Source of the DNA: Verrucomicrobiales bacterium
GTDB taxonomy: Bacteria > Verrucomicrobiota > Verrucomicrobiia > Verrucomicrobiales > DEV007
Length of the DNA stretch: 32,882 nucleotides
Reading direction: 5' to 3'
Assembly (NCBI GenBank): GCA_024641425.1
Contig: JAHEDC010000008.1
Span: forward strand, 1 to 32,882
In this document: positions 8,666-19,606 of the stretch, piece by piece
Numbering within the stretch: position 1 is the first letter of the stretch
How the letters are laid out: every line of letters starts with the position of its first letter
The notes under the pieces: generated by a model
Databases searched by the model: none
Seen by the model: the letters and a program-made list of their open reading frames with translations, nothing else
Told to the model about the DNA's origin: nothing
Translations under genes and position numbers: made by a program

Positions 8666-8689
8666 CCCGAAATGCCCGTTTATTTCGGG
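8666..8689. terminator. Perfect hairpin after parA
   Basis: CCCGAAAT and ATTTCGGG form a perfect 8-bp stem with an 8-nt loop in the parA-secA gap. No T-run follows, so it could end the parA transcript or be an operator. Its position 65 bp after the parA stop favours termination. Confidence 0.4.
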
Positions 8690-8806
8690 CTGCCTAAATA
8701 CAAAAGGCATTCCAAACAAACGACCAGCGACGTATCGCGGCCGTGGCGACTCCCCCCTTCCCTCGCCATCGGGCCGATCCCGTCGCGCCTACAACAAGCG
8801 AATTTC

Positions 8807-11800
8807 ATGATAAAGTGGATCATCAGGAAGATCATCGGCTCGAAAAACCAGCGGGAAATCCGCCGGATTTGGCCGCTGGTGAAGAAAATCAACGCCTTCG
8901 ATGAGGAATTCAATAGCCTCAGCGACGATGATCTGCGCGCCAAAACGGTGAAATGGCAGGAAGAACTCGCTTCCTTCGAGGCCACGCTTGACGGGGAAAT
9001 CGCGGCCTGGGTCGAGTCCGAGAAGAAGGCCATCGAAGCCTCCGGCAAGCCCGAGGACGACCAGGCCCGCGCCGTTCAGGCCATTATGGAACAGGCCCGC
9101 AAGCGCAAGGTCGAAGGCCTCCACGATGTTTTCGCCTCCCAGAATGCCTACCTCGACGAGATCATGTGCGAGGCCTTCGCCGTGGTGAAAAACGGCGCCC
9201 GCAGACTCTGTGGAACCAGCTATGATGTTTGCGACCAGCAGGTTACCTGGGAAATGGTCCATTTCGATGTCCAGCTCATCGGCGGTATCGGTCTCCACCG
9301 CGGGATGATCGCCGAGATGGCGACCGGGGAAGGCAAGACCCTGGTCGCCACCCTTCCCGTCTACCTGAACGCCCTCACCGGCCGGGGCGTCCACCTCATC
9401 ACGGTGAACGACTACCTCGCCAAAAGGGACGCGGAATGGATGGGCTACCTCTACAAGTTCCTCGGCCTTACGGTCGGGGTCCTCCAGGGAGCCCAGCAGC
9501 AGAGCCCGGACATGAAGCGGGAAATGTACAACTGCGACATCACCTACGGCACGAACAGCGAGTTCGGCTTCGACTACCTCCGCGACAACGGGATGGCCTC
9601 GTCGAAGGACTACCAGGTGCAGCGCGGCCATTTCTTCGCCCTCATCGACGAAGTCGACTCCGTCCTCATCGACGAGGCGCGCACCCCGCTCATCATCAGC
9701 GGTCCGGTCTCCTATAGCAACACCCACCAGTACGACCGCTACAAGCCGCTCGTCGAGCAGTTGGTGAAAAAGCAGAACATCCTTTGCAACCAATCCATCA
9801 CGGACGCCAAGACCGCCTTTGACGAGGGCGACCTTGTTGCCGCGGGACACGAGTTGGTCAAGGTGAAGCTTGGGCAGCCGAAGAACCGGGGCTTCCTCCG
9901 CCTGATGGAGGATCCCGAACTGCGGAAGCTGTCCGAAAAATCGGAATTGACCTTCTACCAGGACAGTCAGAAGACCGCCCTCTTCGCGCTCAAGGAGGAA
10001 CTTTACTACACCATCGATGAAAAGGGCCACGATGCCGATCTCTCGGAAATGGGGCGAAATTACCTGAATCCCGACGATCCCGACGCGTTCGTCCTCCCCG
10101 ACCTCGCTACTTCCTTCGCCGACATCGAGGCCGACGAGGCGCTCTCCGAGGCGGAGAAGGGAGTGCGTAAGGAGGAAATGCAGAAGAAGCTCGACACCCA
10201 GGGCGAGCGCATCCATTGCATCTCCCAGCTCCTCAAGGCCTATTGCCTTTACGAGAAGGACGTCCAGTACGTCGTCACCGACAACAAGGTCGTCATCGTC
10301 GACGAGAACACCGGCCGCGAAATGCCCGGCCGTCGCTGGAGCGACGGTCTCCACCAGGCGGTCGAGGCCAAGGAAGGCGTGCAGATCGACAAGGAAACCC
10401 AGACCCTCGCCACGATCACGATCCAGAACTACTTCCGCCTTTACGAGAAGCTCGGCGGCATGACCGGAACGGCCGAGACCGAAGCGGCGGAATTCCACGA
10501 CATCTACGGCCTCGACGTGCTCCCCATCCCGACAAACCGCCCGGTCCAGCGAAAGGACGCGAACGACCATATCTACAAGACGCGCCGCGAGAAATTCAAC
10601 GCCGCCATCGCCCTCATCAAGGAACGCCACGCCAAGGGCCAGCCGGTCCTTGTCGGAACGGCCAGCGTCGATACCTCGGAGACCGTCTCTCGCATGCTCA
10701 AGCGTGAGAAGATCCCCCACGCCGTCCTCAACGCCAAGTTCCACCGCCAGGAAGCCGAAATCGTCTCCCGCGCCGGCCAGCCCGGTTCCGTCACCGTCTC
10801 GACGAACATGGCCGGTCGGGGCACCGACATCAAACTCGGCGAAGGGGTCGCCGACGTCGGCGGACTCTTCGTTCTCGCCACCGAGCGCCACGAGTCCCGC
10901 CGCATCGACCGCCAGCTGCGCGGCCGTTGCGCGCGCCAGGGCGATCCCGGCGAATCGATCTTCTTCATCAGCTTCGAGGACGACCTCATGCGGAACTTCG
11001 GCGCCGCCGACCGCATGACCAAGATCATGGAGCGCTTCAAACTGGAAGAAGGCCAGGAACTCCAGCACCCTTGGCTCAATCGCTCGGTCGAGACCGCACA
11101 GAAGCGCGTCGAACAGCGAAACTACACGATCCGGAAGCGCGTTCTTGAGTTCGACGATGTGATGAACCAACAGCGGGAAGTCGTCTACGGCTACCGCAAT
11201 GAGGTCATCGCGACCCAGAATCCCCGCGAGCTCCTTTTCGAGATTATCGAGGAAGCCATCCCGGTCAAGGTCGCCTCCTATCTCGAAGCCCTCGACGGCG
11301 AGCCCGACTTCGAGAATCTGCTCCAGTGGGTGAACGCCACCTTCCCCATCGGCCTCAGCCGCGAGAACGCCGATTTCGAATCCCGCGATGTCGAGGGCAA
11401 TGCCGCCTTCCTCGTCGAGAAGATCAAGGCCGTCTACGAGATCAAGACGAAGAGCGTCCCGCCCGGGCCTCTGGCCGCCATCGAGCGCCACATGATCCTC
11501 GCCAGCATCGACAGTCTCTGGCAGGAACACCTCTACGGTATGGACTCCCTCCGCGAGGGCGTGCATCTCCGCTCCTACGGCCAGAAGGATCCGCTCATCG
11601 AATACAAGAACGAAGCCTTCTCCATGTTCCAGGAACTGATGGAGAACATCAAGTTCGAGGCCCTGAACAACCTCTTCAAAAGCCAGGCCGCCATCATGAT
11701 GATGGAAGGCATGCTCACCGGCGGACCCACCCGCCAGGGTCCCGGCCCCCGCATGCTCGGTCCCGAGAACATGGGCCAGTCCGGCAATTCCGGCGCCATG

Positions 11801-11944
11801 ATGGACGTCGAGGCCTCCGAATCCCTGAAATTGCCCGACCTCAGCAAGGTCAAGAAACCCTCCCAGCCCGTCGTCGGCCGCAACGACCCATGCCCCTGCG
11901 GCAGCGGGAAGAAATACAAGCAGTGCTGCGGACGCGGGGCGTGA
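8807..11944 (+). CDS. secA: Protein translocase ATPase SecA
   Basis: A 1,045-residue SecA, the motor that drives preproteins through SecYEG. The Walker A motif ATGEGKT is near residue 170, the DEAD-like IDEVDSVLIDEARTPLIISG begins near 278, and the helicase II motifs TNMAGRGTDIKLGEGV and DRQLRGRCARQGDPGES follow near 665 and 705. The C-terminus has the zinc-binding NDPCPCGSGKKYKQCCG. The protein is longer than E. coli SecA (about 900), mostly through an insert near residues 320-470, as in other PVC and Bacteroidetes SecAs. I chose the ATG at 8807 (MIKWIIRKIIGSKNQREI); the upstream open frame is not SecA-like. Confidence 0.98.
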   Translation: MIKWIIRKIIGSKNQREIRRIWPLVKKINAFDEEFNSLSDDDLRAKTVKWQEELASFEATLDGEIAAWVESEKKAIEASGKPEDDQARAVQAIMEQARKRKVEGLHDVFASQNAYLDEIMCEAFAVVKNGARRLCGTSYDVCDQQVTWEMVHFDVQLIGGIGLHRGMIAEMATGEGKTLVATLPVYLNALTGRGVHLITVNDYLAKRDAEWMGYLYKFLGLTVGVLQGAQQQSPDMKREMYNCDITYGTNSEFGFDYLRDNGMASSKDYQVQRGHFFALIDEVDSVLIDEARTPLIISGPVSYSNTHQYDRYKPLVEQLVKKQNILCNQSITDAKTAFDEGDLVAAGHELVKVKLGQPKNRGFLRLMEDPELRKLSEKSELTFYQDSQKTALFALKEELYYTIDEKGHDADLSEMGRNYLNPDDPDAFVLPDLATSFADIEADEALSEAEKGVRKEEMQKKLDTQGERIHCISQLLKAYCLYEKDVQYVVTDNKVVIVDENTGREMPGRRWSDGLHQAVEAKEGVQIDKETQTLATITIQNYFRLYEKLGGMTGTAETEAAEFHDIYGLDVLPIPTNRPVQRKDANDHIYKTRREKFNAAIALIKERHAKGQPVLVGTASVDTSETVSRMLKREKIPHAVLNAKFHRQEAEIVSRAGQPGSVTVSTNMAGRGTDIKLGEGVADVGGLFVLATERHESRRIDRQLRGRCARQGDPGESIFFISFEDDLMRNFGAADRMTKIMERFKLEEGQELQHPWLNRSVETAQKRVEQRNYTIRKRVLEFDDVMNQQREVVYGYRNEVIATQNPRELLFEIIEEAIPVKVASYLEALDGEPDFENLLQWVNATFPIGLSRENADFESRDVEGNAAFLVEKIKAVYEIKTKSVPPGPLAAIERHMILASIDSLWQEHLYGMDSLREGVHLRSYGQKDPLIEYKNEAFSMFQELMENIKFEALNNLFKSQAAIMMMEGMLTGGPTRQGPGPRMLGPENMGQSGNSGAMMDVEASESLKLPDLSKVKKPSQPVVGRNDPCPCGSGKKYKQCCGRGA

Positions 11945-15508: not shown

Positions 15509-16255
15509 ATGAAAATTCGAAACCTGCTAGTTGTGGGTGCGGTTTCCGGGGCGGTTTGGATGCCATTCGCATCTTCCGCGAAGGACGAACCCGCCCTTCC
15601 CTCCGCCAAGGTGAGCGACCTCACCGTGGATGGCTTCATCGGCGAGAACACCGTCGATGTCGAGTCGTTCAAGGGCAAGGTCGTCGCCGTCGAATACTGG
15701 GGACAGCATTGAGGCCCCTGCATGGCTTCCATGCCCCATCTGGTCCAGATGGATAAAAAGTATGCGAAAAAGGGTCTGCAACTCATCGGCGCGCACGTCC
15801 AGGCCGCGACCAACGAGGAATTGACGGACATCATCAAGAACTACAAGATCGGCTTTCCGATCGCCACCAAGGTCAATAGTCCGGTGCCTTCGAAGGGAAT
15901 TCCGCACATGATCGTCTTCGGGGCCGACGGGAACCTCGTCTTCGCCGGTCATCCGGCGAACCCGGATGCCGAGAAGGCGATCAAGGCGGCCCTGAAGAAG
16001 GTCGGAGATCCGGGCGGGGCTTCCGGGGACGCGGATTCCTCCTTGCTCGCGCCGCGACCCGAAACCCTGGTCGAACTGCGGACCTGGACCAATGCCGAAG
16101 GCAAGACAATGAAGGCCAAATTGCTCTCCGTCGAGAACGGTACCGGCAAGTTCGCCTTCGCCGACGGACGCACCTTCGACTACGCCCTCGACAAGCTCTC
16201 CGACGAAGACCAAAAGGTCGTCGCCGAGAAGTCCGCGTCGACCGAAAGCGAATAG
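15509..16255 (+). CDS. Secreted TlpA/thioredoxin-like selenoprotein candidate with SHD1-like C-terminus
   Basis: One reading frame of 249 codons, interrupted only by TGA at 15710-15712. Read as selenocysteine it gives 248 residues: a signal peptide (1-24), a thioredoxin fold (about 33-166) and an SHD1-like domain (about 190-241, RTWTNAEGKTMKAKLLSV to LSDEDQKVVAE). The TGA sits at residue 68 in EYWGQH-U-GPCMASMPHL, exactly replacing the first Cys of the TlpA-type CGPC active site; C71 is retained. P132 in GIPHM is the expected cis-Pro. The frame after the TGA is fully conserved in character, which argues against a decayed gene. The codon before it is CAT, and a hairpin follows. A Cys-to-stop mutation (TGC or TGT to TGA) or a sequencing error is the alternative. 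Its role would be thiol redox chemistry outside the cytoplasm. Confidence 0.78.
15710..15752 (+). promoter_or_regulatory. UGA codon and candidate bacterial SECIS hairpin
   Basis: CCATCT (15736-15741) and AGATGG (15747-15752) pair perfectly around the loop GGTCC (15742-15746). The loop begins 29 nt after the UGA and has G in its first two positions. As I recall, bacterial SECIS models ask for about 16-37 nt and a G among the first two loop bases, and E. coli fdhF has a similar GGUCU loop. Another perfect stem, GCATGG/CCATGC, lies at 15720-15734. Confidence 0.62.
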
Positions 16256-16270
16256 CTCCTTCCGGCTCCG

Positions 16271-16309
16271 GCAGTCGCATCCCGCTCTCTCGGGATGCGA
16301 CTGCTTTTT
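16271..16309 (+). terminator. Strong intrinsic terminator after the selenoprotein candidate
   Basis: GCAGTCGCATCCCG and CGGGATGCGACTGC form a perfect 14-bp stem with a 6-nt loop, followed by TTTTT. It lies 15 bp after the stop codon at 16255. This is the clearest terminator in the window. Confidence 0.93.
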
Positions 16310-17106: not shown

Positions 17107-17257
17107 ACTCAGACATTCGTTGCAGGGTCGGCAAGCGTGCGCGACAGGAACTTGCACGACTTGGCGCTTCCGCTCTCCCCTAGGCGCGCCTTTCCCCCGC
17201 AATCCGTCCGCTCCTTCCCTACGCCCACGCCGCTGCAGCTTTTCCAGACTTCCCATT

Positions 17258-19606
17258 ATGCCTTCAAACCACTCGAGGGACGACAAGTCTGCGACCAGGA
17301 CACCTTTCGCAAACATCGCCCTCCTCCTTGCGCTCTCCTTGGCGGCTTGTAGGCGCAACGCCCCGGAAGATAGTCCAGAGGTGAGCGCGCCCCTCCTTCC
17401 TTCGGCGGCGGGAGGTCAAGGGGTGATTCTGGAAACACTTCGACGACTCAGCGAGGCGGCGGAGCACGATCACCCGCTTCTTGGCGACAGGAAGGTGCGG
17501 GCACTCCGGGCAAGACTGTCCGCGATCCCTGAACCCAGCGAAACCCCGGAGCATTCCCGCGCCCTTTATGAACTCGGCATCGAGGAATTGCGGATGAACG
17601 CACTGGAAGAGGGCATCACCCATCTGGACCACGCCCTCAGCCTCACCGCGAAGATCGCGTTTCCCGATGACGCCCAACGAACCCTCTGGACGAACCGGAT
17701 CCGCTTTCAGTTGGGAGTCGGGTACCTCCGGCTCGGCGAGACGGAGAATTGCTGCCTTCTCTACACCGCCGAGAGCTGCATCGTTCCCATCCGCGGCGGC
17801 GGCCTGCATTCAAGGACACGCGGTTCCCGGGGAGCCATCCGTTACTTCGAGGAAATACTGGGCCATCCACTGCCCGGCGAGGAGATCATGGAAACCCTCC
17901 AGGTCCGATTGGCCGCCCGTTGGCTTCTCAACATCGCCTACATGACGCTGGGAGAATACCCGGACGGCGTTCCGGAACCCTTTCGCGTACCCGCTTCAAG
18001 GTTCGAAGATTCGGCAAGCTTCCCGCACTTCGAGAACATCGGTGTTACGATGGGCCTTGATACCTTCAACCTCGACGGGAGCGTTGTCGTCGATGATTTC
18101 GACAACGATGGTGATCTTGATATTCTGACCTCCACCTGGGACCCACGGGGACAAACCCGATTCTTCCGCAATGACGGGGACGGGCGTTTTTCCGACCAAA
18201 CCGAGACCGCCGGGCTCACCGGATTCTTCGGGGGACTCCACCTAGTCCAGGCGGATTACAACAACGATGGCTATCTCGACGCCCTCATCCTCCGCGGCGC
18301 ATGGCTTGGCGCCTACGGCAGGATTCCGAACTCCCTCCTTCGGAACAACCGCGACGGCACTTTCACCGACGTGACGATGGAGTCGGGCCTGGGGGCGACG
18401 GCCTTCCCTACCCAGACGGGCGCGTGGGCCGACTACGACAATGACGGCGATCTCGACCTTTATCTTGGCAATGAATCGGAACGCGCCTTCGCTGCTCCCA
18501 CCCAGCTCTTTCGCAACAATGGCAACGGCACCTTTACCGACGTCGCGGAAGACGCCCGGGTGCGCGAAACGATCTTCGCCAAGGGCGCGTCCTGGGGCGA
18601 TATCGACAACGACCGGTTTCCGGATCTCTTTGTCTCCTTCGCGGGCGGCCCGAACCGGATGTTCCGCAACAATGCCGACGGCACCTTCACGGATGTCGCG
18701 CCCGAACGGGGAATGACTTCCCCGACGGGAAGTTTCGCCACCTGGTTCTGGGACTACAACAACGACGGGAACCTTGATCTCTGGGTCGGGTCCTCGACGG
18801 GTCCCGTCGGGGTTCTCCTTCTGTTTTCGAATGGCATCGGAAATCCCGCGAATGATCCCGAGACCCAGCGGCTCCAGGATCAGTTCGTTGCGGAATCGAT
18901 GAAACTCTATGAGGGCACCGGCCTCGGAATGTTCCGCGAGGTCTCATTCGCTCGCGGTCTCCATTACCCCAGTCAACCCATGGGCTGCAACTTCGGGGAT
19001 CTCGATAACGACGGCTTTCTCGACTTCTACCTTGGCACGGGAAACGTCGACTACGCCGAGCTTCGACCGAACCTCATGTTCCACAATGAAGGCGGCCGGA
19101 AATTCACCAACGTCACGATGGCGGGAGGATTCGGGCACCTCCAGAAAGGACATGGCGTTTCATTCGCCGATCTCGACAGCGATGGCGACCAGGATGTCTA
19201 CATCCAGATGGGAGGAGCCCAATGGGCCGACGAGTTCTACGATGCGATCTTCGAGAATCCCGGCTTCAAGAACAACGCCCTCACCGTAATCCTCGAAGGG
19301 CGGGAATCAAATCGCTCCGCCATTGGGGCCAGGATCAAGGCCGACTTCACCGACGGCGGCTCTCGCCGTGAAGTCTACCGCCACGTGAGCAGCGGTAGCA
19401 GTTTCGGAAACAATCCGCTCCGCCAGGCCATCGGAATCGGCAAGGCCACGACTGTCAGTACCCTTGAAGTTTTCTGGCCGACCACGGGCAAAACACAGAC
19501 GTTCTCAAACATCCCGGCGGGACAAACCATCCGCATCGTCGAGGGCGAAGCGACCTTCAAGACGGTGCCCTTGGAAGCGGTTCGTCTCCACACGAAACAG
19601 CCCTAA
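17258..19606 (+). CDS. FG-GAP/VCBS repeat lipoprotein with ASPIC/UnbV-like C-terminus
   Basis: A 782-residue exported protein. The N-terminus ends in a lipobox-like LAAC with C31 as the likely lipidation site. Residues about 50-250 are helical and TPR-like (SRALYELGIEELRMNALEEG). The rest is a beta-propeller of FG-GAP repeats with calcium-loop motifs: DDFDNDGDLD, ADYNNDGYLD, ADYDNDGDLD, GDIDNDRFPD, WDYNNDGNLD, GDLDNDGFLD and ADLDSDGDQD. The end (AIGARIKADFTDG, RQAIGIGKATTVSTLEVFWP) is the ASPIC/UnbV domain. Such proteins are abundant in Verrucomicrobia, Planctomycetes and Acidobacteria; their functions are mostly unknown. The ATG at 17258 gives the signal sequence. It is convergent with lexA. 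Confidence 0.88.
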   Translation: MPSNHSRDDKSATRTPFANIALLLALSLAACRRNAPEDSPEVSAPLLPSAAGGQGVILETLRRLSEAAEHDHPLLGDRKVRALRARLSAIPEPSETPEHSRALYELGIEELRMNALEEGITHLDHALSLTAKIAFPDDAQRTLWTNRIRFQLGVGYLRLGETENCCLLYTAESCIVPIRGGGLHSRTRGSRGAIRYFEEILGHPLPGEEIMETLQVRLAARWLLNIAYMTLGEYPDGVPEPFRVPASRFEDSASFPHFENIGVTMGLDTFNLDGSVVVDDFDNDGDLDILTSTWDPRGQTRFFRNDGDGRFSDQTETAGLTGFFGGLHLVQADYNNDGYLDALILRGAWLGAYGRIPNSLLRNNRDGTFTDVTMESGLGATAFPTQTGAWADYDNDGDLDLYLGNESERAFAAPTQLFRNNGNGTFTDVAEDARVRETIFAKGASWGDIDNDRFPDLFVSFAGGPNRMFRNNADGTFTDVAPERGMTSPTGSFATWFWDYNNDGNLDLWVGSSTGPVGVLLLFSNGIGNPANDPETQRLQDQFVAESMKLYEGTGLGMFREVSFARGLHYPSQPMGCNFGDLDNDGFLDFYLGTGNVDYAELRPNLMFHNEGGRKFTNVTMAGGFGHLQKGHGVSFADLDSDGDQDVYIQMGGAQWADEFYDAIFENPGFKNNALTVILEGRESNRSAIGARIKADFTDGGSRREVYRHVSSGSSFGNNPLRQAIGIGKATTVSTLEVFWPTTGKTQTFSNIPAGQTIRIVEGEATFKTVPLEAVRLHTKQP

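Follow-up and report, generated by a model that had tools for sequence, protein, structure and literature searches.

A hairpin behind the in-frame UGA of a thioredoxin-like gene in Verrucomicrobiales: a probable bacterial SECIS element

When a lone UGA codon interrupts an otherwise open bacterial reading frame and is followed by a small hairpin, does the codon end the protein, or is it read as selenocysteine (Sec) under the direction of that hairpin? The question is raised by a 32,882-nucleotide stretch of DNA (hereafter the window) from a Verrucomicrobiales bacterium (contig JAHEDC010000008.1 of assembly GCA_024641425.1), in which a frame runs from ATG at 15509 to TAG at 16253–16255 with a single interruption, the in-frame UGA at 15710–15712. 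The original prediction, made from the letters of the window alone, had pointed to a perfect hairpin with a GGTCC loop 29 nt past this codon and had read it as a bacterial SECIS element. The hairpin is present as described, as CCATCTGGTCCAGATGG at 15736–15752, and the reading placed on it is weighed below.

Gene and predicted product

Read through the UGA, the frame encodes a 248-residue protein laid out as a hydrophobic N-terminus, a thioredoxin-fold domain that holds the active-site motif W-G-Q-H-U-G-P-C and, beyond a linker, a small C-terminal domain (Table 1). Two Pfam profiles exceed their cut-offs, PF08534 (Redoxin, 40.7 bits against 26.6) and PF00578 (AhpC-TSA, 36.7 against 26). The AlphaFold2 model (mean pLDDT 83) has a thioredoxin fold at residues 39–162 and a separate domain at residues 188–246, and Foldseek and HMMER, the one by fold and the other by sequence, both return ResA/DsbE-type structures from the PDB. 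Profile, fold and UxxC motif together place the protein in the thioredoxin superfamily, among its redoxin/TlpA-like members. The best NCBIfam match is ResA (NF002854), a model that 20 of 20 members match, and the PDB matches include ResA and DsbE; the window protein differs from the Cys-containing ResA/TlpA proteins in carrying Sec for the first Cys, and its ResA score is 49.8 against a cut-off of 170. No NCBIfam family, including ResA and the WAxxUGC selenoprotein, scored over cut-off for the window protein. The C-terminal domain resembles SHD1 (PF03983), which in the window protein itself scores 17.2 bits (E 0.0045), below the Pfam cut-off of 23.7, and for which 6 of 20 family members have a match with E ≤ 0.01, the strongest at 6.3e-8. 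The product is probably a thioredoxin-fold protein with a U-G-P-C active site and an SHD1-like C-terminal domain, with export and thiol-disulfide chemistry as predicted properties. A strong terminator-like hairpin just past the distal stop is what would be expected if the whole frame is one gene.

In the family scan the SHD1-like domain by itself (query residues about 180–240) also aligns with further proteins encoded in these genomes, many at 42–51% identity. The neighbours of the gene in the window are an FG-GAP/UnbV_ASPIC repeat protein downstream (17120–19603) and SecA upstream (8672–11941).

Table 1. Features of the selenoprotein locus, with positions counted from the first nucleotide of the window
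Feature	Position	Strand	Basis or remark
Probable selenoprotein gene, thioredoxin-like (ResA/TlpA, redoxin) with C-terminal SHD1-like domain	15509..16255	+	248 aa, UGA read as Sec
Probable secretion signal, residues 1–25	15509..15583	+	Hydrophobic N-terminus; pLDDT <50 in model
Thioredoxin-fold domain, residues about 35–162	15611..15994	+	Profiles, AlphaFold2 model, fold matches
UGA codon, probably read as selenocysteine 68, in U-G-P-C redox motif	15710..15712	+	Codon is TGC or TGT in the aligned Cys forms
Second small stem, GCATGG/CCATGC	15720..15734	+	Present; unsupported as functional
Probable SECIS hairpin, CCATCT/AGATGG stem, GGUCC loop	15736..15752	+	Folding and homologue comparison
Loop G-U, presumed SelB contact	15743..15744	+	Alignment columns 34–35; invariant in 34/34 UGA homologues of common register
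SHD1-like C-terminal domain, residues 188–246	16070..16246	+	PF03983 in family members; separate confident model domain
Strong hairpin resembling an intrinsic terminator, 15 pairs, T tail	16270..16305	+	Just 3' of the distal stop, TAG

Homologues with UGA or Cys at the same codon

A scan of 74 genomes of the family found a homologue with one TGA in 21, the window's own genome included, the other 20 proteins being 40–53% identical to the window protein, and a scan of 386 genomes of the order found matches with E ≤ 1e-20 in 126. Queries of the genome contigs with the single protein found no relative; an alignment query yielded 36 loci. To read off the codon at the Sec column, loci were placed on a profile built from 20 UGA proteins (alignment A1, from which L036 was left out for its ambiguous bases), low-scoring TGA rows such as G219, G057:C572 and G032 falling outside this inspection. 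Removal of same-locus repeats reduced 161 rows to 119 distinct ones, which carry TGA (38), TGC (59), TGT (18) or another codon (4) at the site. The main comparison uses the 48 Cys rows that score at least 150 bits, lower-scoring Cys rows being left out, and the alignment of Cys genes (A3) holds 41 of them, without the near-copies L150 and L157 and the degenerate motifs L164, L168, L169, L171 and L172.

All 20 named records of the UGA form (L053–L072) are labelled Verrucomicrobia, most of them Verrucomicrobiales, and the Cys homologues in the named-record scan include Planctomycetota and Kiritimatiellia. When the UGA form was sought elsewhere in the phylum (387 genomes), it was found among the inspected matches in two genomes only, both of this order, and a stricter motif search gave no match. 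The locus L185, a candidate from beyond the order, was rejected on finding Cys at the site, and the one-TGA matches in G163, G358 and G304 proved on codon inspection to be Cys forms. Two loci, L106 (G190:C123) and L030 (G050:C557), share an identical 78-nt stretch around the UGA in genomes of two different families, which probably reflects contamination of one assembly or recent transfer.

These counts bear on the reading in which the UGA is a true stop, a sequencing error or a sign that a Cys gene has decayed to a pseudogene, and in which the hairpin is a by-product of a conserved protein whose HLVQM segment back-translates to a palindrome. Such an error would be at home in the fragmented assembly from which the window comes (721 contigs, 5.48% contamination), yet UGA occupies the same codon in 38 distinct sequences, and the downstream frame is open in all 21 UGA homologues examined for it.

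The hairpin in one sequence and across the family

The criteria for bacterial SECIS elements were coded from a figure legend in PMC13188914, where the bSECIS model has an apical loop of 3–9 nt on an upper stem of 4–16 bp, G in the first two loop positions (mostly G[G/U]), 16–37 nt from UGA to loop, and an MFE at or below -7.5 kcal/mol. Two liberties were taken: G[G/U] may begin at loop position 1 or 2, and a hairpin energy of -4 kcal/mol or lower is demanded together with an MFE of -7.5 or lower for the 48 nt after the codon. For the window element, RNAfold favours 7 bp with the 3-nt loop GUC at a spacing of 30 nt and -7.7 kcal/mol for the hairpin alone, the alternative being 6 bp closing GGUCC at 29 nt, and the stretch after the UGA has an MFE of -16.6 kcal/mol. 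Loop and stem size, loop G, spacing and energy thus all fall within the published limits. Among the 13 perfect 6-bp/5-nt hairpins on the + strand of the window, a number from which simple arithmetic gives about 0.008 expected with a loop 16–37 nt past a given UGA, only this one has GU at loop positions 2–3, and none on the other strand does. Rfam gave no gathering-score match in the window and none at E up to 10 for 15650–15820.

The original prediction had staked the element on its being favoured over shuffled sequence, an expectation that held but weakly: z is -2.79 for the 17-mer, with 4 of 200 shuffles doing as well, and -1.58 for the 51 nt from the UGA onward (13 of 200), and synonymous recoding of the gene gave an equal hairpin in 12.7% of 10,000 draws (p = 0.13), a point in favour of the by-product explanation. 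From the lone sequence the hairpin is moderately unusual and therefore suggestive; it becomes decisive only through comparison.

In that comparison the coded model was passed by 36 of 38 UGA homologues and by none of the 48 Cys homologues scoring at least 150 bits (Fisher p 3e-22, uncorrected for relatedness), and the two UGA rows that fail, L125 and L134, do so on the energy limit. Over all 77 Cys rows two pass, both from the distant homologue L084, and in a wider set of 38 UGA and 55 other rows, three of the latter with Ser or Asn, one non-UGA row passes (L174, TCG for Ser). The best local hairpin, any hairpin counted, averages -6.63 kcal/mol in UGA rows and -3.56 in Cys rows. In the stem, 93.7% of cells are paired in 34 UGA genes as against 53.0% in 41 Cys genes, and the RNAalifold consensus for the former is exactly the distal stem, 6 bp with a 5-nt loop, while the latter yield no consensus structure.

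Among the stem pairs that vary there is one clean double change. In L031 CTG...CAG has become CTC...GAG, a Gln-to-Glu replacement accompanied by a synonymous Leu change, and L020 has a U-A pair at the stem base. Since five stem pairs are invariant in all 34 UGA genes of the common register, no covariation signal can come from those pairs; formally, two pairs are changed on both sides, a result equalled in 52 of 500 shuffles, and the percentage paired lies above all 500. The tree requires nine Sec/Cys changes, at least three of them on well-supported branches, and a tree-aware test finds three well-supported independent Sec/Cys contrasts, none in the wrong direction and too few for significance. 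The expectation that UGA homologues would keep the stem through compensatory changes and that Cys homologues would lose it is borne out by L031, by a comparison within L123–L126 described below and by the paired fractions. One Cys homologue, L163 (G304, TGC), keeps the same stem as CATCTC-GCC-GAGATG with the loop U changed to C; it may be a SECIS fossil left after Sec reverted to Cys.

A claim of G at both first loop positions stands in part. The second G is invariant together with the U that follows it, but the first is C or A in 6 of the 34 genes and so is not required. In other bacteria SelB touches a G and a U of the loop, and the invariance of this dinucleotide, which matches those contacts, is suggestive of the same role here.

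Synonymous shuffling of one gene at a time remained non-significant (median p 0.103 in the UGA set, with 7 of 38 at 0.05 or below, and 5 of 48 in the Cys set), and a column-wise test of synonymous sites was used instead. It drew on 33 UGA genes of the common register, L134 being left out of the 34, and on 31 two-fold columns, one of which is the UGA itself, leaving 30 to compare. The third base is invariant in just two of these, His77 (CAT in 33/33) and residue 80 (Gln, Glu or Lys ending in G in 33/33). Both are stem positions, no column outside the stem is invariant, and the next most constant columns reach 0.88 (Cys71) and 0.82. With all 34 genes counted, His is CAT and the Gln/Glu/Lys codon ends in G in 34/34, as against near-even background use. 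This column-wise control preserves relatedness and shows that synonymous sites are otherwise well mixed. The Cys homologues, which mostly have Ala in place of Val at the loop position, have dropped the stem. A stop, error or pseudogene is very unlikely as an account of the UGA, and the hairpin reads better as an RNA element.

The two tandem hairpins of the original prediction fare less well. A 6-bp stem at 15720–15734 is indeed present, and the functional element might be conceived as both hairpins together (15720–15752), given that the best fold of 15714–15756 forms both and that in the nearer stem the four outer pairs are frequently preserved. The two inner pairs of that stem, however, are broken in 16 and 21 of the 34 UGA genes, the outer ones sit in conserved codons (TGC, ATG CC) and are frequent with Cys too (62% of cells paired, against 76% with UGA), and the RNAalifold consensus includes the distal stem alone. 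A helix beside the UGA (GAGGCC/GGCUUC) folds equally well, and for the full two-stem structure the covariation statistics do not exceed shuffles. A tandem element is unlikely on this evidence, and the distal hairpin is taken to act by itself.

Not all UGA homologues use the common register. L123–L126, four UGA homologues from a different family of the order, are without HLVQM, and in three of them the hairpin reads TGCCAC-AGTTG-GTGGCA or TGCCGC-AGTTG-GCGGCA, with G-U present in a loop 25 nt past the UGA, 4 nt nearer than in the common register; in the fourth, L125, this stem has one mismatch. Where L123 has Val (GTG), L124/L126 have Ala (GCG), and a silent switch of a Pro codon from CCA to CCG compensates, so that A-U becomes G-C. 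The second register may have arisen by a slide of the element or by a separate origin. On a somewhat favoured reading, these loci belong to an undescribed family of exported UxxC thioredoxins in Verrucomicrobiales that carry an SHD1-like domain, exchange Sec and Cys, and have a SECIS that moves, CATCT-xGUNN-AGATG at 29 nt in most lineages and GCCRC-AGUUG-GYGGC 4 nt nearer in another family; the element would dictate Val79 and Met81, a demand relaxed upon return to Cys.

Selenium machinery, known systems and significance

The genome that holds the window carries a full-length tRNA-Sec with anticodon UCA (60.9 bits against 47), SelB (293.7 bits against 242.25, with SelB-wing_3 at 5e-14 and a weak wing_2) and SelD (260.4 bits against 125). 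Of SelA it has a C-terminal piece that ends one base from a contig end and scores 91.7 bits, below cut-off, and no full-length SelA was seen. An in-frame UGA aligned with Cys, in a genome with selB, selC and selD and a sub-cut-off fragment of selA, is the profile of a selenoprotein gene. Across the order, SelB was found in 31 of 39 UGA genomes, a number that includes G190, whose 78-nt stretch equals that of G050 and may be contamination; the eight without SelB are 53–88% complete, and SelB is present in every one of the 22 UGA genomes whose completeness is 90% or more. It occurs in 8 of 44 genomes with Cys forms only (a few with Ser at the site), and its presence in 76 of the 347 genomes that are without the UGA gene (order n = 386; SelB genomes n = 107) makes other selenoproteins likely there. 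SelD of L049 (G000:C230) is encoded within an open frame of 758 aa, well beyond the length of SelD by itself, and is likely a fusion.

UGA read-through occurs in bacteria, and the codon could in principle be read by a near-cognate tRNA, whether generically or as Trp or Gly, with no part for Sec. Nothing specific speaks for this here, whereas the aligned homologues carry Cys and not Trp or Gly, the UGA genomes have SelB and the window's own genome tRNA-Sec, and a hairpin of the Sec type is retained alongside UGA and not alongside Cys; near-cognate decoding is extremely improbable. The hairpin at 15736–15752 is almost certainly the apical part of a bacterial SECIS element that directs Sec at UGA 15710, with SelB binding and Sec insertion as its presumed mode of action, and the SECIS reading of the original prediction is supported by the split between UGA and Cys homologues, the third-base invariance and the Sec machinery. 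As the ribosome reaches or pauses at UGA 15710, SelB with Sec-tRNA-Sec (anticodon UCA) would bind the hairpin through its C-terminal winged-helix domains, touching the loop G-U, and Sec would be delivered in place of termination, to serve as the nucleophile at the first position of UxxC. The protein would probably work in thiol-disulfide exchange outside the cytoplasm, and, as a guess, the SHD1-like domain may tether it to a partner or matrix.

Set beside the bSECIS model of the PMC13188914 legend, the element shares the apical loop G-U, the 6-bp stem, a spacing of 29–30 nt (16–37 in the model) and a place within the coding region past the UGA. It differs from the type case, fdhF, in having no extended lower helix that is conserved and in its longer spacing, the GGTC loop of E. 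coli fdhF, used as a control, lying 18 nt after UGA140; the three homologues with an element 4 nt nearer the UGA on a different stem are a further departure. On the protein side, Table 1 of PMC13188914 lists UxxC selenoproteins that include thiol-disulfide isomerase-like (cd02966), redoxin family (PF08534) and Prx-like (PF00578) proteins, with which the window protein shares the redoxin/AhpC-TSA/thioredoxin fold and Sec as the first residue of UxxC. The window subfamily is set apart from these by its SHD1-like domain and by a distribution that was seen here in one Verrucomicrobiota order only; the distinction follows the descriptions in that table, so that overlap is possible and the subfamily may be partly covered by its UxxC families. 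In the portions of text returned by a full-text literature search, which included PMC13188914, PMC1088965, PMC9312934, PMC12013277, PMC2398784 and PMC4807772, the subfamily was not found by name. The type of element is already known, and the subfamily with the SHD1-like domain, for which no NCBIfam model or literature match was found, appears from its sequences to be new.

Genes like this one are usually annotated as truncated or missed altogether. With its numerous Sec and Cys forms of a single enzyme among related bacteria, the family can reveal how a SECIS arises, shifts and disappears within coding sequence and at what cost to the protein. It also suggests that a widespread and mostly uncultured group uses selenium in a redox protein that is probably periplasmic or secreted.
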